From: a virus
IMG/VR virus record: IMGVR_UViG_3300027911_000040
Coordinates: 1 to 34,702 of that record
Direction: 5' to 3' (one strand)
Length of the DNA stretch: 34,702 nucleotides
The notes under the pieces were generated by a model. The model saw only the letters and a program-made list of their open reading frames with translations. It was not told where the DNA came from and did not search any database. The number at the start of each line of letters is the position of its first letter. The stretch's first letter is position 1. Shown here one piece after another: positions 748-34,640 of the stretch. A program made the position numbers and the translations under genes.

Positions 748-1980
748 CGCCAATATGCTGATCAGTTCGCCCTCTCGGGCGCGAAGATCGGTTACACCTG
801 TAACGTCCGCAAGCCGCCGCGCTTCATCGGCACGACCGGCCCGGCACTCAACATCGAAGACACCAACGAGACGTACATTCCCGTCACGTTGACGACCCAG
901 TTCCACGTCGACGTGCAGTTCACGACTGCCGACTTGGCGACTTCGGTCGATCTCTTCAAGGAGCGCATCATCAATCCGGCGGTCGCGGCGGTCGCGAACA
1001 AGATCGACCGCGACGGTGCGGTCTATGCGTACCAGAACATCCCGAATGCTGTCGGCACGCCCGGTGTGCCTCCCGCGTCGGCACTGGTCGCGAACCTCGC
1101 GAGTGCAGTCCTCGACGGCGAGGCCGCTCCGCGTGACGGTACCCGCGTCCTGATCCTCGATCCGTTCAGCATGGCCTACATGCAGGACGCACTGAAGGGG
1201 CTGTTCAATCCCCAGGTGCAGATCGGTGAGCAGTACACCAAGGGTCTCATCGGCAAGAACACGCTCGGATTCGACTGGTACCTCGACCAGAATGTGGTGT
1301 CCTACGCTGTCGGCAACGGCAACGGTACCGGCACCGCGATCTCGGCTGCGCTGATCAACAATACGTCGAGCGCGTGGCTCGCGTCAGGTTGGGCGCAGAG
1401 CGGTCTCATCCAGTCCAATACCTGGACTGCGTCCGCGAACCCGCGACTCACGGTTGGCGACATCGTCACCGTGACCGGCGTGTACTCGGTGAACCCGCAG
1501 AACCGTGGTGTGTACGGTTCCAACCGTCAGCGGCAGTTCGTGGTGGTCCCGCCGACCGCGACGCTGGCGAACGGAACGTACAACAGCACGACGGGTGTGT
1601 ACTCGTCCACCGCTGGCGGTGCGCTCGACTTCTACGTCGCGAACTGCGGCATCTACGGTGGTCAGTTCCAGAACATCTCGGCGCAGCCCGGCGCGACCGC
1701 GACGATCCAGGTCTGGGGCGTGACGACCGGCGCGTATGCCAATGCGGTTTCGCCGCAGAGCATCGCCATGCACCGCGACTGTCTCGCGCTCGCCTTCGCG
1801 GATCTCGATCTGCCGGGTGGCGTGGACATGGCGGCTCGGGCCGTGGACGAGGAGGCCGGAATCAACTTCCGTGTCGTCCGACAGTACACGATCAACAACG
1901 ACGCTCTTCCGTGCCGATTCGATGTGCTGTACGGCTGGGCGAAGCTGTACCCGGAGCTGGGCGTTCGCGTCGCAGGCTAA
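748..1980 (+). CDS. Major coat protein, exon 2 (P22 coat family)
   Basis: Exon 2 encodes 410 residues; with the 30 of exon 1 the spliced coat protein is 440 aa, close to the 430 aa of P22 coat. It begins RQYADQFALSGAKIGYT, which continues the exon 1 ending and matches the start of many P22-type coat proteins, where a near-identical Asn-Arg-Gln-Tyr run is uninterrupted. The HK97-type fold and an inserted middle domain are expected from the family; the Gly/Thr/Ser-rich stretch about residues 200-330 of the spliced protein probably corresponds to that insertion. The gene follows the scaffold gene directly, as in P22. An upstream in-frame ATG at 610 lies inside the intron and is not the real start. 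Confidence 0.9.
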   Translation, partial: RQYADQFALSGAKIGYTCNVRKPPRFIGTTGPALNIEDTNETYIPVTLTTQFHVDVQFTTADLATSVDLFKERIINPAVAAVANKIDRDGAVYAYQNIPNAVGTPGVPPASALVANLASAVLDGEAAPRDGTRVLILDPFSMAYMQDALKGLFNPQVQIGEQYTKGLIGKNTLGFDWYLDQNVVSYAVGNGNGTGTAISAALINNTSSAWLASGWAQSGLIQSNTWTASANPRLTVGDIVTVTGVYSVNPQNRGVYGSNRQRQFVVVPPTATLANGTYNSTTGVYSSTAGGALDFYVANCGIYGGQFQNISAQPGATATIQVWGVTTGAYANAVSPQSIAMHRDCLALAFADLDLPGGVDMAARAVDEEAGINFRVVRQYTINNDALPCRFDVLYGWAKLYPELGVRVAG

Positions 1981-2003
1981 ATCATAGGGTTTTCCGTTGC
2001 GGG

Positions 2004-2026
2004 TACACGATCAGCAATGATCGGTA
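2004..2026 (+). other. Stem-loop downstream of the coat gene
   Basis: CGATCA-GCAA-TGATCG (2008-2023) is a perfect 6-bp hairpin with a GNRA-type loop. It can extend by three pairs (2004-2006/2024-2026) past one bulged A. No U tract follows, so it is more likely an mRNA-stabilising or processing element after the coat gene than a terminator. Confidence 0.45.
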
Positions 2027-2068
2027 TCCGCAGCGGATCCCTTCACTTCTTTCTCGGGAGATCCTTCA

Positions 2069-2497
2069 ATGCCTTCAGTCAATCCGGGTCCCGCAGTTGC
2101 GACGAGCCTGAACACTCAGCCGCCGCGCTCGACCGACCAGACCATCCAGACGATTGCGGTGTCGATGACTCCGCTGATCGTCGCCACCATCACGACGGCG
2201 GAACAGTCCTTCGGCGCGAACGGTGTGTCTCAGGCCACGGCGGCAACCGGCATCCTGCCGGGCGACGTGATCCTGGGGATCAGTGCCCCCTCGCTCGTCG
2301 CTGGCGTCGGTATCGCTGGCTTCCGCGTGGATACGGCAGTGGCCGACAAGTTCTACGTCACGTTCGTCAACCCGACTGCGGCTGGCGTGACTCCGGCTTC
2401 CGGCATCTACCTGATCACCGTGGCCCGCTTCAACCAGTCCACGTCGGTCACGCCGGGCACGTTCTCGTCGCTGCCGACTTCCGTCACCACCAACTGA
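2069..2497 (+). CDS. Putative head-associated (decoration or fibre) protein
   Basis: I do not recognise a family. The 142-aa product is rich in Thr, Ser, Val and Ala and appears all-beta, with no signal peptide or membrane segment. It starts at ATG 2069 after GGGAGA. The position immediately after the coat gene and before the tail accessory genes is where many phages encode capsid decoration or cement proteins, so that is the favoured role by context only. Stem-loops lie on both sides, so its dose may be set separately from coat. Confidence 0.55.
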   Translation: MPSVNPGPAVATSLNTQPPRSTDQTIQTIAVSMTPLIVATITTAEQSFGANGVSQATAATGILPGDVILGISAPSLVAGVGIAGFRVDTAVADKFYVTFVNPTAAGVTPASGIYLITVARFNQSTSVTPGTFSSLPTSVTTN

Positions 2498-2520
2498 TCC
2501 CCTCGCTGACATCAGCATTC

Positions 2521-2545
2521 GGGGGCGCTCGCGGCCCCCTTTCTT
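2521..2545 (+). terminator. Intrinsic terminator or attenuator
   Basis: A perfect 6-bp GC stem, GGGGGC (2521-2526) with GCCCCC (2534-2539), has a 7-nt loop and is followed by TTTCTT. It lies between two head genes and probably lowers downstream transcription unless antitermination is active. Confidence 0.7.
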
Positions 2546-2557
2546 CAGGAGAACCCA

Positions 2558-2905
2558 ATGCCGGGTGCAACTCGCGTTCAGCAGGGCAACGAAGTAATGG
2601 ATATGGTGCTGCTCTCAGCAGCAGTCACCTACCCAACGCTCGCCGCATCTGCTTCTGGTACGAACACCTTCACGCTTCCGGGTGTTCAGCCTTACGACCT
2701 CGTCACCTTCTCGATGATCAATCCGCCCGCCCACCTCACGCTCGACAATGCCTACGTCTCGGCGAATAACACCATCACCATCCTGTGGGGTACGGACGGC
2801 ACCGGTATCAGCACCGGCTCTGTCACGGTGATGTGGTCGATCTGTCGCTGCGAGAACGCGCAGGCTTTGCCTGCCGGTGCGGCGATTCCTTCGGTCCTTC
2901 AGTAA
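2558..2905 (+). CDS. Putative head-associated protein
   Basis: This 115-aa protein is of unknown family. It starts at ATG 2558 after CAGGAGA and is predicted mostly beta from alternating hydrophobic and Thr/Ser residues, with two cysteines near the C-terminus (SICRCEN). It lies between the coat gene and the gp4-like gene with hairpins on both sides. It resembles the preceding gene product in size, composition and position, but I see no clear alignment between them. A virion decoration role is inferred from place in the operon only. Confidence 0.5.
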   Translation: MPGATRVQQGNEVMDMVLLSAAVTYPTLAASASGTNTFTLPGVQPYDLVTFSMINPPAHLTLDNAYVSANNTITILWGTDGTGISTGSVTVMWSICRCENAQALPAGAAIPSVLQ

Positions 2906-2910
2906 CTTTC

Positions 2911-2928
2911 GCCCCTCGCAAGAGGGGC
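2911..2928 (+). terminator. GC-rich hairpin, weak terminator
   Basis: GCCCCTC-GCAA-GAGGGGC is a perfect 7-bp stem with a GCAA tetraloop just after the stop codon at 2905. The downstream sequence ATCTATTC is only partly T-rich, so this may act as an attenuator or an mRNA 3' stabiliser. Confidence 0.55.
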
Positions 2929-2947
2929 ATCTATTCAAGGAGCGTCG

Positions 2948-3961
2948 GTGGCAGCAACGACCCAGAGCGCGCTCGACATCATCGTGGGCGCGCTTCGCAA
3001 CATCAATGCACTGGAAGCCGGTGAAACTCCGAGTGCCCAGGATGCCAACGACGCGCTCCAGGTCCTCAACGACATGCTGGAGTCGTGGTCTATCGACAAG
3101 TGTCTGGTCTTCGCGCAGACCGAGAACTTCCTGAACTTCACGGCGGGGCAGTACCAGTACACGATTGGCAACGCTCCGGGTGGAACCTTCACGGGAGTGG
3201 CTACCTCCGGTTCTCCGACGATCACCGGAGTGACTGTTCCGAGTGGACTCGCGGTCGGCGCTCCGATCACCGACGCGCAGGGACTGTTTCCGACGAGCAG
3301 CTACTCGTTCCCGGCAGGGACGAGCGTCCTGAGTTACAACTCGGGACTGAACACGGTGACGATGACTCAGAACGCGACTGCGAACAGCATCGGTTCCGAC
3401 ACGTTCACCTACCTGATCCCCGGAAACTTCTACCAGGACGCGCAGAGTCTCGCTCCGATCCAGCGGCCGGTGCGGATCACCAATGCGTTCACGCGCATCA
3501 CCTCATCCGGGAACACCGGACTCGACTATCCCATCGACATCATCACCAAGGACAAGTACACGGTGATCGGTCTCAAGGGTGTCTCGGGGCCGTGGCCGAC
3601 GATGCTCTACTACGACCCGACCTATCCGTGGGGCACGATCTACTTCTACCCCAATCCCTCGCAGGCTGGCGTACTGCACCTCTGGAGCGACACGGTCCTC
3701 GCGGACTTCCAGACCATCAACCAGACGATCCTTCTCCCGCAGGGCTATGCGCGTGCCCTCAAGAAGAACCTCGCTCTGGAGCTTGCCCCGGAGTATGGCA
3801 AGACCGCAGGCGCGCTGCTCGTCAGGCAGGCGAAGGAGTCGAAGGATTCCGTGCGCGCACTCAACTCGATCCCGACCGTCACTGCGTTCTTCGACGCTGA
3901 CATCGTGCGCGGCAAGCGCACTGACGCGGGTTGGATCATGCACGGCGGGTTCGCGAATTGA
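2948..3961 (+). CDS. Tail accessory factor, P22 gp4-like (portal-tail adaptor)
   Basis: The 337-aa product is predicted to bind the portal ring after DNA packaging and extend the neck. The N-terminal helices (about 1-60, with DANDALQVLNDMLESW) and the later part (about 170-335, with LDYPIDIIT, YYDPTYPWGTIYFYP and LALELAPEYG) match gp4-type tail accessory proteins. P22 gp4 is only 166 aa; much of the excess is a beta-rich insertion about residues 78-157. The start is GTG 2948 after CAAGGAGC. It is followed by the gp10-like gene with a 4-nt overlap (TTGA), the P22 gene order. Confidence 0.8.
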   Translation: MAATTQSALDIIVGALRNINALEAGETPSAQDANDALQVLNDMLESWSIDKCLVFAQTENFLNFTAGQYQYTIGNAPGGTFTGVATSGSPTITGVTVPSGLAVGAPITDAQGLFPTSSYSFPAGTSVLSYNSGLNTVTMTQNATANSIGSDTFTYLIPGNFYQDAQSLAPIQRPVRITNAFTRITSSGNTGLDYPIDIITKDKYTVIGLKGVSGPWPTMLYYDPTYPWGTIYFYPNPSQAGVLHLWSDTVLADFQTINQTILLPQGYARALKKNLALELAPEYGKTAGALLVRQAKESKDSVRALNSIPTVTAFFDADIVRGKRTDAGWIMHGGFAN

Positions 3962-5739
3962 GCTTCGAAGGCGCAGATTTTGGCTTCGTCGGAGGCGCAT
4001 ACGAGGCCCCGATGCTGTTGCAGGACGCGCAGCGGCTCATCAACTGGTACGTCGAGTTCGATCCCAGTGAGCATGCGAAGATGCCTGTGGCGCTGCTCGG
4101 GTGCCCAGGACTCAACCCGGTCATCTCGACACAGACCGGACAGGTGCGCGGCGCGTGGGTACTTCCCGGAGGCCAGCAGTGCCTGTTCGTCACCGGGAAC
4201 ACGCTCTACGTCTCGACCGTCACGGTCCCGGCGACACAGTTCCAGGCGGCGCAGTTCTCGACCGTCGCTGTCGGAACGCTGCTGACCAATTCGGGGCCAG
4301 TCTGCATTCGCGACAACGGAGTCACGCAGCAGACGACCTTGGGGTTCGCTGGCGGCTATGCGGTCATCGTTGACGGCAAGTACGGCTACTACTACGCACT
4401 GACCGGGCTTCCAACGTCCACGCAGTTCGTCGGCTCGCTTGCTGTCGGATCGAACGTGATCACTCCGGTTGGGACGGTGAACCCATACCTCGTTGCCGGA
4501 AGCGTGATCACGGACTCGCTCGGTGTGCTGCCAGCCGGTACGACGCTGACGCAGACGAACTTCAACGCCAATACGATCACGATGTCGTACACGTCGGTTG
4601 GTGTCACTCCTTCCGACACGTTCACGGTGACCACTCCGGTATTCGGTCAGATCGTGGATCCGGGATTCCTGCCTGCCGACCGGATTGCGTTCATCGAAGG
4701 CTGGCTGGTGTTCAACTACACCAAGACACGCACGTTCTTCACGACCGGGCCGATTGCCTACACGCTGGCGTTTCCCGGATCGTTCTATTCGCTCAAAGAT
4801 AGCAGTTCCGACAACCTCATCACTCTTTACGAGAATGCACGGGAACTCTGGCTATTCGGCGAGCGAACCACAGAAGTGTGGTTCAACCAGGGAGGCGCGA
4901 ACTTCGCCTTCTCGCGTCTCCCTGGTATCGGCCCGCAAGTAGGCTGCGGCGCGGTCCACTCGATCTCGAGAGCAGGCACCGCACTCATCTGGCTCGCGCA
5001 GAACGAGCAGGGCCAGAACTTCGTCGCCATGACGAACGAGTATTCCTGGGAGACGGTCTCGACCTCCGCGATCAACCATGCAATCACCTCGTATGCGGTT
5101 CGCAACGATGCCATCGGCTACTGCTACGAAGAGGACAACCATGTCTTCTACATGCTCACGTTCCCCACGGCGGACGTGACGTGGTGCCTGGACGTGACGC
5201 TGTACCGGCAGAGCGAGGGCAAGCTCGGGTGGCATCAGCGTGGAAGCTGGGATTCGAATCTCGGTGTCTATCACCGTCACCGCTCCAACTGCTACGCGCA
5301 GTTCGCGGACATGCGGGTGGTGGGCGATTGCCAGACCGGGCAGATCCACCAGATGTCCCGCAGCTACTACACGGATGCGGGCAATGTGCTGCGCTGCCAG
5401 CGGCGGACTCCGCATGTCTGGTCGAAGGAGAACCGCGAGCGCGTGTTCATGTCGGCCCTTCAGGTCGAGTTCACGCCGGGCGTCGGACTCGCGACCGGGC
5501 AGGGATCGAACCCACAGGTGATGCTGCGCTGGTCGAATGACGGCGGGCAGACGTGGTCGAACGAACACTGGACGACCATCGGCGCGACCGGCATGACCAA
5601 GAACCGCGCCATCTGGCGCAGGCTCGGGCGTGCGCGTGACCGGGTCTACGAGGTCACCTACACCGATCCGACGCAGCGTGACATCATCGGCGCGACACTC
5701 TGGGGCCAGGGTAACGAGCAGGAGCCGGAAGTGGCATGA
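3958..5739 (+). CDS. Tail accessory factor, P22 gp10-like (DNA stabilisation)
   Basis: This protein is predicted to close the neck below gp4 and carry the distal tail. The N-terminus, FGFVGGAYEAPMLLQDAQR, is the hallmark opening of gp10-type proteins, followed by a beta-propeller-like body with RIAFIEGWLVFN and LWLFGERTTEVWFNQGG segments. From TTG 3958, which overlaps the preceding stop as TTGA, it is 593 aa; another TTG lies at 3931. P22 gp10 is 472 aa. A beta-rich segment at residues 153-228 interrupts the usual sequence and resembles the insertion in the adjacent gp4-like protein. No ATG occurs before 4012, which would delete the conserved opening. Confidence 0.8.
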   Translation: MSFEGADFGFVGGAYEAPMLLQDAQRLINWYVEFDPSEHAKMPVALLGCPGLNPVISTQTGQVRGAWVLPGGQQCLFVTGNTLYVSTVTVPATQFQAAQFSTVAVGTLLTNSGPVCIRDNGVTQQTTLGFAGGYAVIVDGKYGYYYALTGLPTSTQFVGSLAVGSNVITPVGTVNPYLVAGSVITDSLGVLPAGTTLTQTNFNANTITMSYTSVGVTPSDTFTVTTPVFGQIVDPGFLPADRIAFIEGWLVFNYTKTRTFFTTGPIAYTLAFPGSFYSLKDSSSDNLITLYENARELWLFGERTTEVWFNQGGANFAFSRLPGIGPQVGCGAVHSISRAGTALIWLAQNEQGQNFVAMTNEYSWETVSTSAINHAITSYAVRNDAIGYCYEEDNHVFYMLTFPTADVTWCLDVTLYRQSEGKLGWHQRGSWDSNLGVYHRHRSNCYAQFADMRVVGDCQTGQIHQMSRSYYTDAGNVLRCQRRTPHVWSKENRERVFMSALQVEFTPGVGLATGQGSNPQVMLRWSNDGGQTWSNEHWTTIGATGMTKNRAIWRRLGRARDRVYEVTYTDPTQRDIIGATLWGQGNEQEPEVA

Positions 5740-6077
5740 CCGTCCAACTCACCAACCTTCCTTCTGTCAGCCAGCCGCTCAACGAGAAGGGAACGACTTC
5801 GAAGGTGTGGTATCGGTTCCTGTCGGACCTTCATACCGGCAGGCCGACCGCAAGCGAGTATGCGGTCACTCCGACAGTGTCTCCGTTCACGTTCGTCGCT
5901 CCCATCAAGGGTTCGCTGATCGTCCAGGGTGGGACCGTGTCCCTGATACAGTTCAGTCGCAATGGCACCAACAACTACACGACCGGGCAGACGCAGGGCA
6001 TGTTCGCCCTGAGTGCCGGTGATTCTCTGATCATCAACTACTCAGTGGCACCGTCACTGACCTTCGTTCCACAGTGA
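5736..6077 (+). CDS. Small virion-associated protein, unknown
   Basis: This 113-aa protein begins with a segment rich in small residues and KVWYRFLSDLHTG, then a beta-rich C-terminal half. The ATG overlaps the gp10-like stop (ATGA), so the two are translationally coupled. Proteins of this size with a similar Trp-Tyr-Arg-Phe motif often follow gp10-type genes in podoviruses. It could be a small tail or head-fibre component, but it is too short and not helical enough to be the P22 gp26 tail needle. Function is not established. Confidence 0.5.
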   Translation: MTVQLTNLPSVSQPLNEKGTTSKVWYRFLSDLHTGRPTASEYAVTPTVSPFTFVAPIKGSLIVQGGTVSLIQFSRNGTNNYTTGQTQGMFALSAGDSLIINYSVAPSLTFVPQ

Positions 6078-6083
6078 GGCATT

Positions 6084-6449
6084 ATGGCTTCCGTACCGTA
6101 TAAGTTCACGCTCGCCTCAAGCAACAATCTTCAGCCTGTTCGCGCCGGGCAGGGCGGGAACCTCAAGGGATATTCCGCAGTCGTGATTGCGGCGTATCCG
6201 GTCTTCATCAAGCTTTACTGGTTCGTCCCGACCGCCGCAGCCCCGACGCCTGTCGTCGGAACCACAGTCCCGAACATGACCATCGAGGTCGGCGTGCCAA
6301 GCACTGGCGTCGGTCACAACGAGCAGTCGTGGCCGGATGGTGTCACCGGCAACGGTCAGTTGTGGGTTGCGGTGACCAAGGTCGCGACCGACGCCGACAA
6401 TACCTCCACCACCGCTGGCGACGCTGTCATCACGCTGCTGGTCGAGTGA
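6084..6449 (+). CDS. Small virion-associated protein, unknown
   Basis: This 121-aa protein is beta-rich (VVIAAYPVFIKLYWF near residues 32-46), with an even spread of Thr and Val and no membrane segment or signal peptide. It starts at ATG 6084 after GTGAGG and ends in a GTGA overlap with the cupin gene. The family is not recognised. Its place between tail accessory and ejection genes suggests a virion component. Confidence 0.5.
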   Translation: MASVPYKFTLASSNNLQPVRAGQGGNLKGYSAVVIAAYPVFIKLYWFVPTAAAPTPVVGTTVPNMTIEVGVPSTGVGHNEQSWPDGVTGNGQLWVAVTKVATDADNTSTTAGDAVITLLVE

Positions 6450-6889
6450 ACGAACTCATCTTTCAGCAGGAAGACCCTGTGGCTGCGATCCTGCGGCTAC
6501 AGGCTGTCGTCTCAAAGATGGAGCAATACCAGCCAGAGACGACGCACTACTTCGCTGACGGCATGTATCTGCGCTGGGTGTTTCGAAAGGCCGGGACACT
6601 GGTGATCGGGAAAGTCCACAAAAAGCAGCATTTCTACCTCGTCATCCAGGGCGAGATCGAGATTGCCGGTGGTCCCGATGGTCCTAAACGCATGAAGGCA
6701 CCGGCCATCGTTGTGAGCGAGCCTGGGACGAAGCGTGCGGTCTATGCGCTGCAAGACACCGTTTGCATCACCATTCATCGTACCGACAAGACCGACATCG
6801 AGGAGATCGAGAAGGAACTTGTCGAGGACGATCCCAACTCAATGTATCTCGCAGGGAATACGCTGCGAGCCTTGGAGCATCAAGAATGA
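6446..6889 (+). CDS. Cupin-like protein
   Basis: The 147-aa protein has a single cupin-type barrel at about residues 35-115: the metal-site region GKVHKKQHFYLVIQGE carries two histidines and a glutamate in the usual order, and a second hydrophobic strand set contains ITIHR. The start is GTG 6446, overlapping the previous stop, because the upstream in-frame extension lies wholly inside the preceding gene. Related cupins occur in the tail regions of other podoviruses with unknown role; sugar or metal binding in the virion is a guess. The acidic C-terminus (EEIEKELVEDD) is probably helical. Confidence 0.6.
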   Translation: MNELIFQQEDPVAAILRLQAVVSKMEQYQPETTHYFADGMYLRWVFRKAGTLVIGKVHKKQHFYLVIQGEIEIAGGPDGPKRMKAPAIVVSEPGTKRAVYALQDTVCITIHRTDKTDIEEIEKELVEDDPNSMYLAGNTLRALEHQE

Positions 6890-7971
6890 CTTTCTGGGTA
6901 GCGGGCGCAGTAGTCGTTGGTGCCGTGGTCGGTGCCGTTGGCTCCAATCAGGCTGCGGACACGCAGGCGAGCGCGGCAACCAATGCCGCGAACATGCAGC
7001 TTGGCATGTACAACTCCACGGTTGCACGCGAAGCTCCATTCGTATCCAGCGGAACGTCGGCGCAGAATTACCTCGATTACCTTCTTGGGTTGCCCGGCTC
7101 ACAGGGGGGTGCCGGTGGGGTCACGACCACCGCGCCATCGTACAACTGGGGAGGGAATGGATACGGAACCCTGGGTGGTGGGCCGATTAATGGTGTGATC
7201 CCCGGCGGCACTACGACCTCGCCATCTTCAGGACCGAACTCGGGTTTCGGTTCGCTGCTCTCGCCGTTCACCATCGACACGTTCAAGCAGTTCTCCCCTG
7301 CCTACCAGTTCCAGTTGCAGCAGGGCATCCAAGGGACGATGAACGGAGATTCCGCAGGGGCCGGGTCTCTCTCGGGTGCCGCCCAGAAGGATCTGATCTC
7401 CTTCAACCAGGGTCTCGCGAACACCTCGTTCAACAATGCCTTCAACCAGTGGAACACGCAGCAGAACAACATCTACTCGCGTCTCGCTGGAGTCGCAGGG
7501 ACGGGTCAGGCCGCAGCGTCGAATTCCGCGACCGGCGGATCGTCTTATGGTGGCAGCATCGGCACGCAGATTGCGAACGCAGGCACCGCGCAGGCAGGCG
7601 GCATTGTTGGTGTTACGAACTCACTTGGCGGGGCCGCGAGTTCGTTGCCGTGGCTATTGGGAAGCACTGCCGCAAACAATCCAGCTTCGTTGTCGAGTTC
7701 CAATGCAGGGAGCATGATCTCGACTCCGATTGGACTGCCTTCACCAAGCATGACTTCGGACTGGTCTCAGTCCGACCGCAGGCTGAAGACCGACATCGCA
7801 CGCTTCGGCGCGCTCGCTTCCGGCCTTCCGCTCTACGTCTTCCGCTACATCAGGGATCTTTCGATGTGGCACGTCGGAGTCATGGCCGACGAGGCGAAGA
7901 ATCTATTCCCGGATGCCGTCATCGTCGGTGATGATGGGTACCAGATGGTCGATTACGCGAGGATCTCCTGA
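6886..7971 (+). CDS. Putative internal virion/ejection protein with an S74-like C-terminal segment
   Basis: The 361-aa product begins with a hydrophobic, glycine-rich stretch (VAGAVVVGAVVGAVGS), then an Ala/Asn/Gln-rich helical part and a long Gly/Ser/Thr-rich middle, as in DNA-ejection proteins. The last 70 residues start SDRRLKTDI and contain YVFRYI, HVGVMADEAKNLFPDAV and VDYARIS. This is the signature of the Peptidase_S74 intramolecular chaperone, including the Ser-x4-Lys pair, but shorter than usual. The start is ATG 6886, overlapping the cupin stop. The next two genes look like the rest of an ejection set. Confidence 0.6.
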   Translation: MTFWVAGAVVVGAVVGAVGSNQAADTQASAATNAANMQLGMYNSTVAREAPFVSSGTSAQNYLDYLLGLPGSQGGAGGVTTTAPSYNWGGNGYGTLGGGPINGVIPGGTTTSPSSGPNSGFGSLLSPFTIDTFKQFSPAYQFQLQQGIQGTMNGDSAGAGSLSGAAQKDLISFNQGLANTSFNNAFNQWNTQQNNIYSRLAGVAGTGQAAASNSATGGSSYGGSIGTQIANAGTAQAGGIVGVTNSLGGAASSLPWLLGSTAANNPASLSSSNAGSMISTPIGLPSPSMTSDWSQSDRRLKTDIARFGALASGLPLYVFRYIRDLSMWHVGVMADEAKNLFPDAVIVGDDGYQMVDYARIS

Positions 7972-26573: not shown

Positions 26574-27001
26574 TTCCGGGAGATACACGCAGACGGTTGG
26601 TCGACTGGGGGATATGGTCTGCCGGGTACGGTGTCTCCGGGTTCCCAATGATGTCGGCCTTCATGCGGATCAACTGCGGGAGCCGCTCGACCGCGACGAT
26701 GGAGAACCCCGAGTGCGTCAGGACCGACCAGATCGTCGGCAGGGCGGAACTCCGTCTTCGGAAAATACTGATCCGCCACTTCTGCACGCGGGGATCGGTG
26801 AGGGAGAAGGCGCTGCGTGCCCGCCTAGCGAAATCGACGTACTTCGATCTCCTTGAAGAGGGCGCGTGGTTCGTTCACACCGAGTACGACAAACCGGAAT
26901 TTGCAGTCCCCGGACAGTTGATGTATATCGGAAGTAGCGTGGGCATTTCCTCCCCCGCCCCCTCCCAAACACCTCTCAGGAGCAACGCTAATGGCCGTTG
27001 A
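26570..27001 (+). CDS. Putative late-gene regulator (Q-like antiterminator)
   Basis: The 143-aa product begins with RRRLVDWGIWSAG, has a middle segment with RTDQIVGRAELRLRKILIRH and a helix-turn-helix-like GSVREKALRARLAKSTYFDL. This layout (Trp-rich start, a helix with Arg-x2-Leu repeats, terminal HTH) is that of phage antitermination Q proteins and related sigma-region-4-like activators. Its place at the head of the packaging/morphogenesis genes fits. ATG 26570 overlaps the upstream stop. Confidence 0.5.
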   Translation: MIPGDTRRRLVDWGIWSAGYGVSGFPMMSAFMRINCGSRSTATMENPECVRTDQIVGRAELRLRKILIRHFCTRGSVREKALRARLAKSTYFDLLEEGAWFVHTEYDKPEFAVPGQLMYIGSSVGISSPAPSQTPLRSNANGR

Positions 27002-27314
27002 CCGTCATCCTTCGCGTGCGCCGGGCATGCCGCGCAAGCCTCCTCCGACCTCCAGCACGGACGGTCAGCCGAACACCGTCGCCAAGACCGAGCAGGGTCC
27101 GGGTATCCCGGACATCGTCTACGGTTCCCGCAATGGGAAACTGATGAACCTCAAGATCGTCCACGATCACGGCAGCGAGCGGCACCATGACTTCATGGGC
27201 TTCTCCGAGGGCAAGGCTCCGAAACCCGGCAAGGAGCAGGCGAACGAAGGCCCGATGCGCGGATCGAAGGCCGGTCGCCCCGGCGACGAGCGCAAGTCCG
27301 ACGAGCCTGGCTGA
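26991..27314 (+). CDS. Unknown hydrophilic protein
   Basis: This 107-aa protein is Pro/Gly/Lys-rich and probably disordered, except for a central NLKIVHDHGSERHHDF segment with several histidines. AGGAG stands about 8 nt before ATG 26991, and the gene overlaps the regulator stop by 11 nt in another frame. No family is recognised. Confidence 0.45.
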   Translation: MAVDRHPSRAPGMPRKPPPTSSTDGQPNTVAKTEQGPGIPDIVYGSRNGKLMNLKIVHDHGSERHHDFMGFSEGKAPKPGKEQANEGPMRGSKAGRPGDERKSDEPG

Positions 27315-27583
27315 TGGCTCGTAACCGCAGTGGGATGCAGCACGCCATGCCGACGAAGGCGCAGCAGGCTGCGTACGAGAAAGATCTCGAGAACCACCGC
27401 AACAAGACCGGGCCGTATGCTCCTCGCAAAACAGAAGGCGAAGACTTGGGCGATTATCTGAATCGTCGCGAACGCCCGAATTGGCCGAAGATCACCGGAT
27501 CCAATCACACGCTCCAGATGCATTCTCACGACACCGGCAGCGAGATGCTCGATGGGGTCCACGGACCCAAGGCAGGGAAGTGA
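27314..27583 (+). CDS. Unknown hydrophilic protein
   Basis: The 89-aa product (MARNRSGMQHAMPTKAQQAA) is highly polar and His-rich toward the C-terminus (LQMHSHDTGSEMLDGVHG). The start shares one base with the previous stop (TGATG). It is one of a run of five small polar proteins before the terminase genes. Confidence 0.45.
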   Translation: MARNRSGMQHAMPTKAQQAAYEKDLENHRNKTGPYAPRKTEGEDLGDYLNRRERPNWPKITGSNHTLQMHSHDTGSEMLDGVHGPKAGK

Positions 27584-27840
27584 TGCTCTTCGACAATGTC
27601 GTCGGCGGTCTGCGGCTCATGCCGTCCACCCAGCTACCCAACCAGCCTGCCGCCCCCAACCGGGTTCAGCCCGGTCCCGAGCGCATGCCATTCGATCCCG
27701 GAATGGGTCCGCAGCGCATCATGCCGGGTCCGGTATCTACCCCTGTCGCGCCCGGCCCGACCACCAGTGGCAGGGTGATGACTCCCGGTGACGGCAACCC
27801 GATGGGCGGGCACTGGGGAGTCCGGGGGCCATACGCATGA
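27583..27840 (+). CDS. Pro/Gly-rich small protein, unknown
   Basis: This 85-aa protein is dominated by Pro, Gly and Met (GPERMPFDPGMGPQRIMPGP), with no predicted secondary structure, and is likely disordered. ATG 27583 overlaps the previous stop (TGATG) after GGGAAG. An upstream in-frame extension lies inside the preceding gene and is not preferred. Confidence 0.45.
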   Translation: MLFDNVVGGLRLMPSTQLPNQPAAPNRVQPGPERMPFDPGMGPQRIMPGPVSTPVAPGPTTSGRVMTPGDGNPMGGHWGVRGPYA

Positions 27841-27977
27841 AGGCCGCGAACCGCGCTCTGGCAGTTCCGAGAGTTCCGCCTGTGCGGGCACCGGACGGGA
27901 AGTTCCAGCAGGGAAAGGGAGACCGGCTGGTCGAGGCGCACCGGAAGACCCAGGATGCCAAACCCAAAGCCCCGTGA
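27837..27977 (+). CDS. Small basic protein, unknown (46 aa)
   Basis: The ORF starts at ATG 27837, overlapping the previous stop (ATGA), and encodes a basic peptide (FQQGKGDRLVEAHRKTQDAK). The next gene starts 23 nt before its end. Coupled starts support it; function unknown. Confidence 0.45.
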   Translation: MKAANRALAVPRVPPVRAPDGKFQQGKGDRLVEAHRKTQDAKPKAP

Positions 27978-28104
27978 GACCCTGCACAGCTTCATGTCCC
28001 GCTTCATGGGCAGCAAGGAAGCCGGTGAAGACTTCCCGGACCAGAAGCAGCGTGCCGCAGTCGCCTACAGCAAGTTCCGCAAGCGCAAGAAGGTCAGGAA
28101 GTGA
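27955..28104 (+). CDS. Small basic phage protein (49 aa)
   Basis: The product contains SFMSRFMGSKEAGEDFPDQK and then QRAAVAYSKFRKRKK. The Phe-Pro-Asp-x-x-Gln-Arg followed by Ala-Tyr-Ser is a motif I recall from many small phage proteins near terminase and head genes, often found fused to or beside capsid proteases. The start is ATG 27955; it overlaps the next gene by 4 nt (GTGA). Confidence 0.5.
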   Translation: MPNPKPRETLHSFMSRFMGSKEAGEDFPDQKQRAAVAYSKFRKRKKVRK

Positions 28105-28391
28105 GCGACATCTTTCCCGAGGACACCAACCGGATCTTCCTGGTGTGCCGCTATCACGCCACCGAGAAGCAGTCCCTGTGCATCGGTCGGAGGCGTGGCA
28201 CCGGCTACTATGGCGCTCCGCGCCCGCAGGACGTAGACGGTTGGTACAGGGAGCATGCTGACTGCGGCGGGAACATGGATCACATTGCCCTGAGCTACCA
28301 GAAGACGCAGGACTGGAAGGTCGCGGACGTGGACAAGATCTCGACCGCCATCAATGGCGCATTCCACCCGGAACTACCCAATGCATCTTGA
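28101..28391 (+). CDS. Unknown protein
   Basis: This 96-aa protein has aromatic-rich segments (IFLVCRYHATEKQSLCIG and GTGYYGAPRP) and three cysteines with several histidines, so a metal site is possible. GTG 28101 overlaps the previous stop. It overlaps the GroES-like gene by 11 nt or more, depending on that start. No family is recognised. Confidence 0.45.
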   Translation: MSDIFPEDTNRIFLVCRYHATEKQSLCIGRRRGTGYYGAPRPQDVDGWYREHADCGGNMDHIALSYQKTQDWKVADVDKISTAINGAFHPELPNAS

Positions 28392-28782
28392 GAAGTCCGG
28401 TACCAGCCTCAACCCGAAGCGGGTCGAGTTCGTGGAGGGATCCCTCAAGCCAATGGGCGACCGGATCGTGGTCAGGCCCCTCCCCGTGAAACTCTCCCAG
28501 ATCATCATCGCCGCCAGACAGGGCAACTTCCTGGGCACGGTGATGGCAGTCGGCCCCGGAGAGTACCCGTGGATCTACAACCGAGACCGCAGCAAGCGTC
28601 ACCAGTCCAAGCACTTCCGCCCCACCGAGGTGAAGATCGGTGACGTGGTCGAACTCGGCGGACAGGAACACGACAGCGGCTACGCCTTCACCCGCGTCTG
28701 CCTCAACGGTGAGGACGTGATCGTGGCGAGCGAGAAGGACGTTGCTGCGGTGCATCAGAACGTCGGTGAAATTGCACCGTGA
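28381..28782 (+). CDS. GroES-like co-chaperonin (Cpn10 fold)
   Basis: The 133-aa protein carries the GroES beta-barrel pattern: LKPMGDRIVVRPLPV at the start, a mobile-loop-like LSQIIIAARQG whose hydrophobic III occupies the place of the GroEL-binding IVL tripeptide, then GTVMAVGPGEY, VKIGDVVELGG and GEDVIVASEKDVAAV at the end. It probably redirects host GroEL to fold the coat or other virion proteins, as T4 gp31 does. Its place just before terminase, portal and coat fits. ATG 28381 or ATG 28354 may be the start. Confidence 0.75.
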   Translation: MHLEKSGTSLNPKRVEFVEGSLKPMGDRIVVRPLPVKLSQIIIAARQGNFLGTVMAVGPGEYPWIYNRDRSKRHQSKHFRPTEVKIGDVVELGGQEHDSGYAFTRVCLNGEDVIVASEKDVAAVHQNVGEIAP

Positions 28783-29141
28783 GTACACCGCTTCGCAAGC
28801 TGGACTTCCTCAAGCCTCCTTGGCAGCCCGGCCAAAGCGGCAATCCCGCCGGTCGTCCCAAGGGTTCGCGCAACAAGTTGACCGAGGCATTCCTCCAGGC
28901 GCTCCATGAGGACTTCGAACAGCATGGGGCATCTGTCATTCAGGTCACGCGACTGAGCGAGCCTGCGGCCTACCTGAAGATCGTGGCGTCGCTGTGCCCA
29001 CGCGAGCTTGACGTGAAGCGTCCGCTGGAGGACATGGACGATGCTGAACTCCGCGCTGCCATCGATGCTCTCCAGCGATTCGTCGCTATTGGCCCGCTTG
29101 ATGGGTCAGCTTCAGGCGGAGGCTCAGAGACGACTCAGTGA
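28779..29141 (+). CDS. Terminase small subunit (DUF5681-like)
   Basis: The 120-aa protein has the N-terminal signature WQPGQSGNPAGRPKGSRNKL, then TEAFLQALHEDFEQHGAS and a helix containing PAAYLKIVASLCPRELDVK, as in DUF5681-type small terminases. It should bind the packaging site and load the large subunit. GTG 28779 overlaps the GroES-like stop. Its 3' end overlaps the large subunit by 101 nt in another frame. Confidence 0.75.
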   Translation: MSTPLRKLDFLKPPWQPGQSGNPAGRPKGSRNKLTEAFLQALHEDFEQHGASVIQVTRLSEPAAYLKIVASLCPRELDVKRPLEDMDDAELRAAIDALQRFVAIGPLDGSASGGGSETTQ

Positions 29142-30480
29142 GCGTGCGCTCCAGTCCTATGCTCCGTACCCGAAGCAGGCTGACTTTCACTCCGCTGGAT
29201 TCGCGAACCGTGAGCGACTGCTCATGGCGGGTAACCAGTTGGGCAAGACGCTTGCAGCGGGCATGGAAGTCGCCATGCACGTCACGGGTCAGTATCCCGA
29301 ATGGTGGAATGGCCGTCGCTTTGATCGACCCACTCACTGGTGGGCGGCTGGTGTTACGGGTGAGTCCACCCGCGATAACGTGCAGCGAATTCTTCTCGGT
29401 CGGATCGGGCAGCGTGGTACGGGTTCGATACCGAAATCCACGATCCTTGAAACGACTCCCTCCAGGGGCGTGGCGGAACTCGTTGATACGATCCGTGTAG
29501 CGCACGTCAGCGGTGGTGAGTCCACCATTGCGCTCAAGTCCTACGAGCGCGGTCGAGCGAAGTGGCAGGGCGAGAGCCTCGATGGTGTCTGGTTCGACGA
29601 AGAACCCGACCAGGACATCTACCTTGAGGGTCTGACTCGGACGAACGCGACCGGCGGGCTGGTGATGATGACGTTCACGCCGCTCCTTGGTGTCTCGGAC
29701 ATCGTGCGGCGGTTCATCATCGAGCATGTGCCGGGCACGCACGTCACGCAGATGACCATCTGGGACGCCGCTCACTACACGGAGGAAGAACGCAGTGCAA
29801 TCGTCTCCTCGTATCCTGAATTTGAGAGGGAAGCTCGCACCAAGGGCATCCCGCAGCTTGGGTCTGGGCGGGTATTCCCAGTGGCCGAAGGCTCCCTTAA
29901 GTGCGAGTCCTTTCAGATTCCGCCCCATTGGCCGCAGGGATGTGGAATCGACTTCGGCTGGGACCATCCATCTGCCGCAGTGAGGATGGCCTGGGACCGC
30001 GACTCGGACACGCTGTACGTCACTGCCTGCCACCGGGCGCGGCAGCAGATCCCGACCATGTTCGCCGCTGGCGTCCTGCCGTGGGGCGACTGGTTGCCGT
30101 GGTCGTGGCCGCACGATGGTCTCGCGCACGACAAGGGATCGGGCGAGCAGCTTGCGAAGCAGTACAAGTCCGCCGGTCTCAACATGCTGCCGATTCGCGC
30201 CCAGTTTGAGGATGGCAGCAATGGTGTCGAGGCTGGAATTGCCGAGATGCTGGAGCGCATGGAGACCGGACGCTTCAAGGTGTTCGCGCATCTCCTCGAC
30301 TGGTGGGAGGAGTTTGGTCTCTACCACCGCAAGGACGGGTTGATCGTCAAGGTCAACGAGGATCTGATGAGTGCCACGCGCTATGCGGTGATGATGCGTC
30401 GCTTCTTCAAGGTGAAGGGCGCGAAGCCATCACGCAACGTGCCGCCGCCTCCCCCACGCAACAACGGATGGATGGGCTGA
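29041..30480 (+). CDS. Terminase large subunit
   Basis: This 479-aa packaging motor and nuclease pumps DNA into the prohead and cuts concatemers. Walker A is GNQLGKT (64-70), Walker B VWFDEE (183-188), and the coupling-motif region LVMMTFTPL follows at 207-215. The RNase H-like nuclease begins CGIDFGWDHPS with Asp304 as a candidate metal ligand. The sequence resembles P22-type terminases seen in many proteobacterial phages (YPKQADFHSAG, AAGVTGESTRDN). ATG 29041 is kept because 20-40 residues normally precede the YPKQ segment; ATG 29101 is possible. Confidence 0.92.
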   Translation: MLNSALPSMLSSDSSLLARLMGQLQAEAQRRLSERALQSYAPYPKQADFHSAGFANRERLLMAGNQLGKTLAAGMEVAMHVTGQYPEWWNGRRFDRPTHWWAAGVTGESTRDNVQRILLGRIGQRGTGSIPKSTILETTPSRGVAELVDTIRVAHVSGGESTIALKSYERGRAKWQGESLDGVWFDEEPDQDIYLEGLTRTNATGGLVMMTFTPLLGVSDIVRRFIIEHVPGTHVTQMTIWDAAHYTEEERSAIVSSYPEFEREARTKGIPQLGSGRVFPVAEGSLKCESFQIPPHWPQGCGIDFGWDHPSAAVRMAWDRDSDTLYVTACHRARQQIPTMFAAGVLPWGDWLPWSWPHDGLAHDKGSGEQLAKQYKSAGLNMLPIRAQFEDGSNGVEAGIAEMLERMETGRFKVFAHLLDWWEEFGLYHRKDGLIVKVNEDLMSATRYAVMMRRFFKVKGAKPSRNVPPPPPRNNGWMG

Positions 30481-30696
30481 ATGGGAACGCTAACTTCAGG
30501 AAGAACCGACGGGCCTATCCATTATTCGCATGACCTGAGTACGCCGATCTGCGGCACCAAAGGTGATGCCATGACGAACAATCTTGGAATCCTCTACAGG
30601 CATCCCGCCGGATGCAAGTCGTGTCAGAAGGCTGTTCGCGCACAGTCTGACGCTGATTACGCAGGCGAAGCCGCAGCCGCAAGAAAGGAACGCTGA
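30481..30696 (+). CDS. Small Cys/His protein (paralogue set)
   Basis: The 71-aa protein contains IHYSHDLSTPICGTKGD and YRHPAGCKSCQKAV. The same order (His, Cys-Gly, His-Pro, CxxC) occurs in the next gene, and in part in the genes at 33088 and 25740. A single zinc-finger-like fold is likely. ATG 30481 follows the terminase stop with no gap. Function unknown. Confidence 0.55.
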   Translation: MGTLTSGRTDGPIHYSHDLSTPICGTKGDAMTNNLGILYRHPAGCKSCQKAVRAQSDADYAGEAAAARKER

Positions 30697-30941
30697 TGCC
30701 AAAGAGCAATTCGAAGCGCATGGAGAACCGCAGGATCGGCGTGCAGTCCCAGGCCCGCACCAACGACACCCTGCACTTCGCTCACGACATGAATTCCACG
30801 CTGTGCGGTGAGAGTGGCAAGAGCCTCACCAATCACACCGGAGCGTTCTACTCGCACCCGACTGCCTGCGAAGCCTGCAAGCAGAAGATCACCGAGGCCA
30901 TGCAGGGAAAGACGAAGGGCGCGAAGGACGGTTCTGGCTGA
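30696..30941 (+). CDS. Small Cys/His protein (paralogue set)
   Basis: The 81-aa product aligns with its upstream neighbour: LHFAHDMNSTLCGESGKSLT and FYSHPTACEACKQKITE match IHYSHDLSTPICG and YRHPAGCKSCQKA. The pair looks like a tandem duplication. ATG 30696 shares one base with the preceding stop after AAGGAACGC. It ends overlapping the portal start by one base. Confidence 0.55.
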   Translation: MPKSNSKRMENRRIGVQSQARTNDTLHFAHDMNSTLCGESGKSLTNHTGAFYSHPTACEACKQKITEAMQGKTKGAKDGSG

Positions 30942-33088
30942 TGTCTGCGGTCCTCTCCGACGAGAAAGAGAAAGACACCGACCCACAGGTGATCACCGAG
31001 TGCGCTGCGCGCCTCAAGCTTTCCGCCGACGCCGAGTCAGAGAACCGCAAGGAAGCCCTGTACGACCTTCGCTTCGCCAATGGCGACCAGTGGCCTGTGG
31101 ACATCAAGCGGGACCGCGACAGCGACGCGAGACCGTGCCTGACCGTCAACATCACCGACGCAATGGTGCGCCGCGTGACCAATGCGCTGCGCGAGAACCG
31201 CCCGCGCATCAAGTTCCACCCGGTCAAGGACACCGACATCGAGACCGCCAAGGTCCGTGACGGGTTGATGCGGCACATCGAGACCTCATCGAATGCCGAC
31301 TATGCCTACGACACTGCCGTCGAGTCGGCGGTGCGGTCTGGCTGGGGCTACATCCGGGTCGGCTCGCGCTACATTGACGAGCGCAGCTTCGACCAGGATC
31401 TGACCATCGAGGCTGTCCCGAACCAGTTCACCTACTACCTCGATCCCGCCTCAACGATGCCGGATGGATCGGACGCGCAGTGGTGTGTCGCCTCGCACTG
31501 GATGCGCCGGGACGAGTACAAGCAGCGGTACGGTGACCGTGATCCGAAGGGCTGGCAGTTCGTCGGTGCCGGTGAGGACATCAAGGACTGGTCGAACAAT
31601 GAAGAGATCCGCGTTGCGGAGTACTGGCGCATCAAGCTGGTCCCGGAGCGCCTGTATCTGGTTGGCGACCATCAGGGTGTGTACGGCTCGCTGTACAGCA
31701 GCGAGATGCCGACCAAGGAGCAGATGGCGAAGGACGGTCTGTACGTCATTCGCGAGCGCCCGACGTACCGCAAGAAGGTGCAGTGGTTCCTGCTGTCTGC
31801 CGCGAAGGTTCTCGACAAGCGTGAGTGGCCGGGGAAGTTCATTCCCGTGGTCCCGGTGTACGGTCGCCAGACGAACGTCAATGGGCGGATCGAGCGCAAG
31901 GGCATGGTGCGCGACCTCCGCGACCCGGCGCGCATGTACAACTACGCGACGACTGCCAAGACCGAAGTCTATGCGCTGATGCCCAAGGCTCCCTGGATGA
32001 TTGCCGAGGGGCAGATGGAGGGGCATGAGGATGCGTGGCGCGACGCCAACCGCAAGCCCATCGTCGCGTTGCCGTACAAGCCGGTACAGAACCCGGACGG
32101 CACGATGGCCCCGCCTCCGCAGCGCCAGCCGCCGCCGCAGCCGAACACAGGCTTTGCGGAGTGGGGCGACAGCACCAAGTCGGACTTCCTCGCCGTCGCC
32201 GGAATGCCGAACGATCCCGGCCAGGACGAGCAGGGACAGGTGATTTCCGGTGTCGCCATCAAGAAGCGGCAGGGCATGTCGGACATCTCGCACTTCGACT
32301 TTTCCGACAACCTGTCGCGCTCGCTGCGTCAGGTGGGGAACATCATCAGCGACCTGATCCCGCACTTCTACGACACGGAGCGCATGCAGCGGATCATCGG
32401 TGACGATGGCACTCCGAGGACCGTGAAGATCAACGAGAAGACCGCCGAGGGCAAGGTCAAGAACGACCTGACCGGCGGACTCTACGACAGCGTGGTGGAC
32501 AGCGGGCCTTCGTACCAGACGAAGCGCGAGGAGGGTGCCATCAACATGATGACCCTTCTCGGCACGCCTCTTGGCGAGACTGTGGCTGCGGCTGCGGGCG
32601 ACATCGTGGTGCGTTCGATGGACTTCCCGGAGTCGGACACGATTGCCGACCGCATGGCCGCGAACATGCCCACCGCGCAGATCGACAAGGACAGCGACTG
32701 CCCGCCGAAGTACCAGATGATGATCAAGGGTCTCCAGCAGCAGCTTCAGCAGGAAGGCCAGAAGAGCATGGCCCTGGAACTGGAACTCAAGGGTCGTCAC
32801 CAGAACATCGAGACGCAGCAGAAGGGCGAGACCGACCGGGTGGCTCTCAAGGAAGCTGCGGCCACGCACCGCACGATCATCCAGACCGACGCCAAGAAGC
32901 GCGACACCGACGTGAACGCTCACGTCAAGGTTCACGACACGACCGTGCGTGCGATCACCGCTCACGACGTGGCGGAGATCAATCAGGCCGGGAGCATCCT
33001 CCAGACGCACGTCGCGCAGGCGCATGAGAAGGAAATGACCAGGGAAGCACTCGAGGACGCCGACGTGGCGAGTCACAGGGTGGAATAA
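30941..33088 (+). CDS. Portal protein (P22 gp1-like)
   Basis: This 715-aa protein forms the dodecameric DNA gate at the capsid vertex. The N-terminal half has DLRFANGDQWP, RPCLTVNITDAMVRRVTNAL and VRSGWGYIRVGSRY, typical of P22-type portals (usual length about 700 aa). The C-terminal part (about 590-710) is a long Gln/Lys/Glu-rich coiled-coil, as for the P22 portal barrel. It lies between terminase and scaffold as expected. ATG 30941 shares one base with the previous stop. Confidence 0.9.
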   Translation: MSAVLSDEKEKDTDPQVITECAARLKLSADAESENRKEALYDLRFANGDQWPVDIKRDRDSDARPCLTVNITDAMVRRVTNALRENRPRIKFHPVKDTDIETAKVRDGLMRHIETSSNADYAYDTAVESAVRSGWGYIRVGSRYIDERSFDQDLTIEAVPNQFTYYLDPASTMPDGSDAQWCVASHWMRRDEYKQRYGDRDPKGWQFVGAGEDIKDWSNNEEIRVAEYWRIKLVPERLYLVGDHQGVYGSLYSSEMPTKEQMAKDGLYVIRERPTYRKKVQWFLLSAAKVLDKREWPGKFIPVVPVYGRQTNVNGRIERKGMVRDLRDPARMYNYATTAKTEVYALMPKAPWMIAEGQMEGHEDAWRDANRKPIVALPYKPVQNPDGTMAPPPQRQPPPQPNTGFAEWGDSTKSDFLAVAGMPNDPGQDEQGQVISGVAIKKRQGMSDISHFDFSDNLSRSLRQVGNIISDLIPHFYDTERMQRIIGDDGTPRTVKINEKTAEGKVKNDLTGGLYDSVVDSGPSYQTKREEGAINMMTLLGTPLGETVAAAAGDIVVRSMDFPESDTIADRMAANMPTAQIDKDSDCPPKYQMMIKGLQQQLQQEGQKSMALELELKGRHQNIETQQKGETDRVALKEAAATHRTIIQTDAKKRDTDVNAHVKVHDTTVRAITAHDVAEINQAGSILQTHVAQAHEKEMTREALEDADVASHRVE

Positions 33089-33438
33089 TGGGCGCATACC
33101 GTTCGATCCTTGACCTTCCAGAGACGAGTACTCCCAGACCGCGTTCTGGATATGAGGAGAAGGAGAAGACTTCGCCTGTCGTGGTGCGCCGCGATTCCAA
33201 GGGGATGCTGGAGGATTCCTATGTCCATCATGCGATAGGCATGAGGGATTCCAATGGGGTTCCGAAGAACTCCATCCATGCTACCTGTGGCGTGAAGTAC
33301 GGGTTCCACACAGATGACATTCCCACCTTGCTGGCACACCCGAATGCCTGCCCTAAGTGCAAGCAGAACCACAGTGAGGCACAGCATGAAGAGATGATTG
33401 AGCGCGTGCGATCCAAGTATCGCGAGCGCGAGGATTGA
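33088..33438 (+). CDS. Small Cys/His protein (paralogue set), between portal and scaffold
   Basis: The 116-aa product has an N-terminal tail (MGAYRSILDLPETSTPRPRS) and a core with NSIHATCGVKYGFHTDD and LLAHPNACPKCKQNHSE, matching the proteins at 30481 and 30696 in the Cys-Gly and His-Pro-x2-Cys-x2-Cys parts. It ends in a charged helix. The start shares one base with the portal stop. A 48-nt gap with a CCGGA/TCCGG hairpin separates it from scaffold. Confidence 0.55.
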   Translation: MGAYRSILDLPETSTPRPRSGYEEKEKTSPVVVRRDSKGMLEDSYVHHAIGMRDSNGVPKNSIHATCGVKYGFHTDDIPTLLAHPNACPKCKQNHSEAQHEEMIERVRSKYRERED

Positions 33439-33486
33439 TCACCGCACCGGACGGTATCCGGGGTTTCGATTGGGGGTTCCCAAGTC

Positions 33487-34533
33487 ATGGCTGTCAGAAC
33501 TGTCGATGCGTCGAATGTCGCTGAGTTCATTGCCGAACGGACGGCAAAAGGCTCTCAGATCCTGAATCCCGACCAGCTTGTCGCTGCGGCTGACCGCATC
33601 GAGAACGCGAAGAAGGGCGACAGGACCGAGGCCACTCCGGGTAATCCCGTCATCAAGGATGGGGTAGCAGAGACGAAGGACGCACCGCCGGATCCCGGCA
33701 ACCTCAAGCCTACCGCCAAGGCTCCCTCGAAAGAGGACATCGCGAAAGCGAAAGCGGGTACGGACCCAGGTGTCCAGAAGCGACTTGATGAACTCACCCG
33801 TGCCCGCGAGGAAACGGAGGAGTTCGCACGCGAGGAGTACAACGCTCGCCTGCGTGCAGAGGGTCGCGTCCAGGAACTGGAGAAGGAATTGGAATCGGCG
33901 CGAAACCAGCCGCCGCCGGTCAAGCAGGAAGAGTTGAAGGAGCCGGATCCGAACGATCCGCAGTACAAGACGGTCGGTGATTTCATCAAGGCCGACCGGG
34001 AATACCAGAAGAAGGTTCGCGACAGGGAAATCGCACAGGCTCGCGAGGAGGAGCGCGTTCGTGTCCAGATGGAACGCGAGAACGAACTCCTTGCGGCCCG
34101 AATTGAAGTGGCGAGGGGAGACCTTCCAGACTTCAATGCGGTGATCGAGGCGGCAGACCGGGTGAAGGTCGAGCTTCCGATCTATGTCCAGAACCTGATC
34201 AAGGTATCCGAGGTTGGTCCGCAGATTGCGTATCACCTCGCCAAGTACCCGGATGAGCAGAAGCGCATCCTGGCCCTTCGACCTGAGCTTGCTCTTGCAG
34301 CACTGGGTCGCATCGAAGCGAGATACGAGAAGCAGGCGAAGAAGGAAGGCGAACCGCCGCCACCTCCGCCCGCTGCCAAACCCACAATTGAAACCAGCAA
34401 GGCTCCAGCGCCTGTCCAGTCGCTGCGAACGGGAGAAGCCACAGTCGTGTCTGATTCCGCACAAGCCTCCAACTTCAACGAGTACAAGCGTCTGAGGATG
34501 GAGGAGATTCGCAGGAGCGGTCGCAGGCACTGA
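33487..34533 (+). CDS. Scaffolding protein (P22 gp8-like)
   Basis: This 348-aa, highly charged, mostly helical protein (KRLDELTRAREETEEFAREE, about 98-117; long coiled coil to about 225) would guide coat assembly and leave before packaging. The Pro-rich linker (GEPPPPPPAAKP) leads to a basic terminal helix, NEYKRLRMEEIRRSGRRH, in the place of the coat-binding helix-turn-helix of P22 scaffold. It lies directly before coat exon 1. The start is ATG 33487. Confidence 0.8.
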   Translation: MAVRTVDASNVAEFIAERTAKGSQILNPDQLVAAADRIENAKKGDRTEATPGNPVIKDGVAETKDAPPDPGNLKPTAKAPSKEDIAKAKAGTDPGVQKRLDELTRAREETEEFAREEYNARLRAEGRVQELEKELESARNQPPPVKQEELKEPDPNDPQYKTVGDFIKADREYQKKVRDREIAQAREEERVRVQMERENELLAARIEVARGDLPDFNAVIEAADRVKVELPIYVQNLIKVSEVGPQIAYHLAKYPDEQKRILALRPELALAALGRIEARYEKQAKKEGEPPPPPPAAKPTIETSKAPAPVQSLRTGEATVVSDSAQASNFNEYKRLRMEEIRRSGRRH

Positions 34534-34550
34534 GGGTCCAGGAGACCTCC

Positions 34551-34640
34551 GTGTCGAACAATCTTTTGACCATCGCACAGATCACCAACGAGGGCCTGAT
34601 GGCTCTCGAAAACGATCTGGTGTTCGCCGATCACGTCAAT
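34551..34640 (+). CDS. Major coat protein, exon 1
   Basis: Exon 1 encodes 30 residues, starting GTG 34551 with GGAG about 6-9 nt upstream: MSNNLLTIAQITNEGLMALE and ending FADHVN. P22-type coat proteins commonly start with a similar short helix before Asn-Arg-Gln-Tyr. The exon ends at the group I 5' splice site (after 34640, equal to position 37) and is joined to exon 2 at 748. Without splicing the frame meets TAA at once. Confidence 0.85.

Follow-up and report, generated by a model that had tools for sequence, protein, structure and literature searches.

In the viral DNA analysed here (34,702 nucleotides, IMG/VR record IMGVR_UViG_3300027911_000040, referred to as a whole as the window) the gene for the major coat protein is interrupted after codon 30. 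This raises the questions of what the interrupting element is, how a coat protein would be made across it and how it came to lie in a structural gene. On the sequence features set out below, the element is very probably a group I intron that is mobile and encodes an HNH_3 homing endonuclease, lodged in the coat gene of a podovirus-like phage of the P22 type.

The interrupted coat gene and its intron

All features of the locus lie on the plus strand. Exon 1 of the coat gene (34551-34640) has a GTG start and comprises codons 1-30, while exon 2 (748-1980) comprises codons 31-440 plus the stop. Exon 2 matches PF11651, P22_CoatProtein (4.3e-22, profile positions 42-423 of 423), and phrog_283 (1.1e-55, positions 32-383 of 385). 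A scaffolding protein gene (33487-34533; phrog_8865, 8e-32) lies immediately 5' of the coat gene, and a portal gene (phrog_156) is also found upstream. When the exons are joined they encode a coat protein of 440 amino acids that is free of stops, which together with the profile matches bears out the assignment of the host gene to the P22 type in a preliminary description of this DNA. The unspliced RNA would read ...DHVN and then UAA, so that the frame closes directly after Asn30.

The same description had the coordinates of the gene wrapping across a circular seam. A 99-base repeat is common to both ends of the window (1-99 being the same as 34604-34702), and the window therefore closes into a circle in which position 37 equals position 34640; the last 37 bases of exon 1 are thus present a second time at 1-37. 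Since the contig begins and ends within this feature, with a 99-base overlap, it could be argued that the arrangement is an assembly artefact at the seam, or else a broken gene in a defective phage. A second contig, IMGVR_UViG_3300006052_000030 (L003), matches the window at 100% identity along 11.2 kb and continues unbroken through the seam. This removes the explanation by a seam artefact and agrees with the wrapped coordinates. A broken gene is also poorly compatible with the data, since both flanks of the interruption keep an intact coat frame and no part of the catalytic core is missing; the artefact or defect explanation as a whole is considered very improbable.

The intron occupies positions 38-747 (710 nt), beginning with the in-frame UAA and ending with G747, and is absent from intronless homologues. 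The covariance-model search called for in the preliminary description (cmscan against Rfam) returned Intron_gpI (RF00028) at 6-701 on the plus strand with 66.8 bits against a cutoff of 50 (E 5e-15). The model was covered in full (1-253), and this was the only Rfam family matched anywhere in the 34702 bases. P1 (30-59) is formed by exon sequence ACGUCAAU (30-37) and the internal guide GUUGACGU (52-59), as seen in the sequence and in the minimum free energy (MFE) fold, and closes at the 5' splice site with the U-G wobble U37-G52. The cmscan alignment places the P element (5' strand of P4) at 71-82, the Q element (3' strand of P4) at 135-145, the R element (5' strand of P7) at 171-182 and the S element (3' strand of P7) at 669-679. 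In the same alignment P3 spans 64-224, with 64-70 pairing with a strand that ends at 224. This helix covaries in relatives, the partner being present in 63 of 69 cases against 33 in shuffles (maximum 42). The first 216 nt of the intron fold with z = -4.0, and the MFE fold has hairpins P7.1 (GAGC/GCUC) and P7.2 (GCAUC/GAUGC) at 183-212, an arrangement that we take to be the layout of IA-type phage introns. A P10 pairing was sought by eye, and nothing convincing was seen. With the open reading frame placed in the P8 loop, the core with P, Q, R and S and helices P1, P3, P4, P7 and P8 is as complete as had been described. The proposed splice sites, after 37 (=34640) and after 747, agree with the P1 U-G pair, the terminal G and the joined coat frame.

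In the proposed mechanism the late coat mRNA would be spliced by the intron RNA itself, by guanosine attack after U37 and then attack of exon 1 after G747, to give a continuous message of 440 codons. As the unspliced message ends after 30 codons, efficient splicing would be needed for virions. No point was found in favour of an intein or of translational bypassing in place of RNA splicing. An intein is ruled out by the in-frame stop that forms the first intron codon, and an insert of 710 nt with a complete group I core also argues against this reading, which is hardly credible.

In-frame stops at the 5' splice site, or a few codons past it, were observed in the window (38-40) and in three related coat introns (L028, L283 and L030). 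Among the matches listed from a scan for the intron core, 45 of 75 cases had such a stop within 12 nt of the 5' splice site. Early stops of this kind may exclude ribosomes from the intron core.

Insertion sites in P22-type coat genes

The extent to which coat genes harbour such introns was assessed by pattern scans of IMG/VR, and the counts that follow are therefore among the matches listed. A pattern from the window intron core, AATTGCTGGAAACYCCTTAGAGCC, was found in at least 118 contigs. When 20 downstream reading frames were sampled, 11 encoded major head proteins (five of phrog_283, the P22 type, four of phrog_1328 and one each of phrog_1357 and phrog_371), and the others included genes for a tape measure protein and a terminase. 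Beyond the P22-type coat genes, at least six relatives of the core adjoin other major-head-protein families. In all five phrog_283 cases the insertion comes one base into the Tyr codon of an Asn-Arg-Gln-Tyr motif, equivalent to Tyr33 of the window. A second scan with the Tyr33 P1 pattern, CGTCAGTRAAN{3,20}GCTGACGT, gave 71 contigs, in 48 of which, among the matches listed, a coat exon 1 ends at that point. The 3' side was confirmed by a terminal G and a restored frame for 32 distinct sequences, a set from which three false positives of the automatic search (L424 at 8626, L238 and L614) had been removed on inspection. In six contigs with Tyr33 P1 and a coat exon 1 (L490, L496, L510, L512, L537 and L544), and in L520, L528 and L529, the 3' side lacked motif confirmation or was absent. 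The core scan added six contigs with variants of the Tyr33 site, such as CGTGAGT with the compensating guide GCTCACG. In all, Tyr33 is interrupted by an intron in at least 54 contigs. The Asn30 site, among the matches listed, is occupied in no contig other than the window and L003, its identical twin.

Some candidates did not survive closer inspection. A TAGTC pattern near a DQF motif in L211-L214 proved by tblastn to be a chance match in uninterrupted genes, and a first loose junction pattern yielded mostly chance matches among those listed. Pattern scans of genome contigs for coat introns gave no matches and then only chance inverted repeats.

Together, a P22-type coat gene interrupted by a group I intron is present in about 60 IMG/VR records, among the matches listed. 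This figure, with the five P22-type genes among the 11 head-protein exons of the sample of 20, contradicts the view, taken in the preliminary description, that such a gene is an unusual host. There are seven distinct sites, six of them inside codons 30-48 in window numbering: after N30 (window and L003), within Y33 (at least 54 contigs, including L410, L424, L430 and L028), after codon 34 (L433), within F37 (L405 and L482), after G45 (L435), within V/C48 (L030) and after D85 (GenBank MW202674). The frame is restored at the related sites; for L405 this was read from the sequence, and L482 has its exon 1 and intron start in common with L405. This list is biased, as one scan targeted Tyr33 and sites late in the gene are more difficult to spot in a listing of first exons. 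The set recruited without this bias, by coat similarity, has sites at N30, Y33, Y33 and V48, to which D85 was added from GenBank. At eight exon/guide pairs the P1 guide tracks the exon: CGUCAGU/GCUGACG, CGUGAGU/GCUCACG, ACGUCAAU/GUUGACGU, UACGAU/GUCGUA, GAUCAGU/GCUGAUC, GAUCGGU/GCCGAUC, UACGGU/GCCGUA and AUGUGGAU/GUCCACAU. These sequence comparisons show that introns of the window lineage repeatedly occupy coat codons 30-48 in diverged phages.

Several of these loci are of interest in their own right. The introns of L028 (190-864) and L283 (3095-3327) share one insertion nucleotide in different coat clades; the former has an endonuclease-like ORF in P6 and the latter has no ORF. On the minus strand of L398 the exact intron core occurs three times within 1 kb (4502-4525, 4983-5006 and 5421-5444), a looser pattern adds a fourth, and each core has its own P1 and an open exon frame, so that several introns apparently lie in one gene. 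In MW202674.1 (16569-18084; L090, 3001-4516) the annotation gives the coat gene as two 'P22 coat protein' fragments that flank a hypothetical protein. The 268-nt insertion in this sequence, which lacks an endonuclease and whose P1 pairs perfectly over 8 bp, accounts for the split annotation. It was counted as an intron on frame restoration, the 8-bp P1 and R/S-like motifs recognised by eye; Rfam gave no match to it, not even when a short stretch was searched at E 10.

The Tyr33 introns resemble that of the window in the Asn-Arg-Gln-Tyr motif, the core family and the terminal U-G of P1, and most of them have HNH ORFs, some having none. They differ in being inserted 7 nt further downstream, in phase 1. 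It is conceivable that the window intron is a local shift of 7 nt from the Tyr33 site in which one guide base was adapted. The CGTCAAT of HVN does resemble the CGTCAGT of RQY, the guides GUUGACG and GCUGACG are one compensated base apart, and over its first ~50 nt the window intron shares 94% identity with several Tyr33 introns. That stretch, however, overlaps the conserved core that served as the search pattern, and a tree of intron cores, with weak support, does not group the window with the Tyr33 introns but places it, again with weak support, beside L030 and introns in other or unidentified genes. On balance a local shift is rather unlikely. A broader reading, put forward tentatively and with less than an even chance of being correct, is that in environmental phages coat codons ~30-48 serve group I introns as a general landing zone, hit independently at adjacent nucleotides by differing intron/endonuclease pairs. 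Independent hits would follow, in this reading, from coat genes being common to co-infecting phages, and the endonuclease may also cut the coat genes of rivals and so favour its carrier in co-infection.

The junction itself had been described as a conserved Asn-Arg-Gln-Tyr sequence and a good homing target. Conservation holds for R31 (92%) and Y33 (100%) but not for N30 (41%), and over nine codons around the junction it is roughly average. The motif does prove to be a strong target for homing, mostly however at the neighbouring Tyr33 site and not at Asn30.

The endonuclease and the empty alleles

The intron ORF (231-668) has a GTG start and encodes 145 amino acids inside the P8 loop. Its match to PF13392, HNH_3 (1.2e-10; 41.3 bits against a cutoff of 24.8), supports the earlier placement of an HNH endonuclease within the intron, and its C-terminal region is HTH-like. 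A search of the solved structures (PDB, phmmer) with the window sequence alone found no relative. A five-member HNH profile did match I-HmuI (PDB 1u3e) with E 6.7e-8 over 87 positions; H62 of the window protein is invariant in five relatives, and its column aligns with the motif His of 1u3e. HNH ORFs in other coat-site introns are 40-47% identical to that of the window. The introns of L028 and L508 carry a different, zinc-finger-like HNH ORF, one copy of which gave no match in a Pfam search; introns at a single RNA site have thus been colonised by different endonucleases. The GC content of the intron (0.48, genome 0.61) and the GC3 of the HNH gene (0.50, coat exon 0.83) are both low, which fits a foreign origin.

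The endonuclease would be translated from its internal start in unspliced RNA and would make its cut close to the insertion point in coat alleles that lack the intron; repair of the break would then copy the intron in. Both this cleavage and the splicing of the window intron are inferred from sequence. Potential targets are plentiful. When the joined coat sequence was searched by tblastn against the fetched loci, 247 had a coat match (duplicates included); most, more than 230, are uninterrupted homologues, as had been anticipated, and they carry nothing in place of the intron, so that the coding sequence that would have spoken against an intron was not found. The contigs recruited by coat similarity include four interrupted ones (L003, L028, L030 and L283), and MW202674, from a phage collection, supplies one more.

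One near-identical pair consists of L028, which has an intron at Tyr33, and the empty allele L010; the two are 99.5% identical over 4.2 kb. They differ at 25 of 4191 positions, six of them no more than 13 nt from the insertion point (-5, +2, +5, +6, +7 and +8) and 19 in the other 4178. A second empty allele, L013, shows the identical six differences from L028. As repair of the break would be expected to copy a few exon bases along with the intron, the clustered substitutions, seen in L028 only, form a co-conversion footprint of recent homing. Beside the insertion point, in L010 and L013, the empty alleles closest to L028, codon 35 is TCG (Ser) and not Asp. The change may mark a variant of the site that is resistant to cutting, or it may be plain pre-conversion sequence.

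For the window coat gene no near-identical empty allele was found, the best full-length homologue being 83% identical and the best partial one (L034) 91%. With no pair comparable to L028 and L010, recent homing of the window's own copy is an inference. The window intron might instead be spliced yet immobile, a vertically inherited copy whose HNH gene is vestigial or has another use. This would suit the restriction of the Asn30 site to the window phage and its identical twin among the matches listed, as well as the introns at the Asn-Arg-Gln-Tyr motif that have no endonuclease gene (L283, L408, L463 and L507). The HNH frame of the window is nevertheless intact, the HNH_3 motif is kept and the invariant positions are common to its relatives, and immobility is accordingly judged unlikely.

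Relation to known systems

Phage group I introns are said to favour genes of nucleotide synthesis and DNA metabolism, a preference that was still described as mysterious in 2025 (PMC12350094). Here one widespread intron lineage is frequently found in major head genes, and a short coat motif is occupied in more than 50 contigs. Natural alleles with and without the intron, among them two that are 99.5% identical outside the insertion, make it possible to test how the host gene is chosen. There is also a consequence for annotation, as coat genes split by an intron enter the databases as two separate 'P22 coat protein' features (MW202674). A full-text literature search of incomplete coverage found no paper that describes introns in coat genes of the P22 type, and within the literature searched the recurrent coat-gene hot spot appears to be undescribed.

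Introns in capsid genes as such are already known. Splicing of the intron in the major capsid gene of mycobacteriophage LittleE has been proven by RT-PCR and protein sequencing (PMC3706429). As in the window, its exon ends in U, its intron ends in G and a homing endonuclease is predicted. LittleE differs in that the capsid is of the HK97 type in a siphovirus and the 819 bp insertion has a LAGLIDADG-like ORF on the opposite strand, whereas in the window the coat is of the P22 type and the ORF, an HNH_3 gene within P8, shares the strand of its host gene. The lactococcal phage Tuc2009 is cited in that paper as having a group I intron in the gene for a capsid subunit (PMC3706429), which is like the window in kind, in another phage and another capsid type. 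I-HmuI (PDB 1u3e), the HNH enzyme encoded in the polymerase intron of SPO1, belongs to the same HNH fold family as the window protein but is only distantly related and has another host gene, and cleavage or nicking by the window enzyme is a prediction. Finally, the intron-encoded endonuclease gp210 of PhiPA3, like that of the window a phage enzyme, offers a model for rivalry between co-infecting phages (PMC11620839), although PhiPA3, unlike the window phage, is a jumbo phage.
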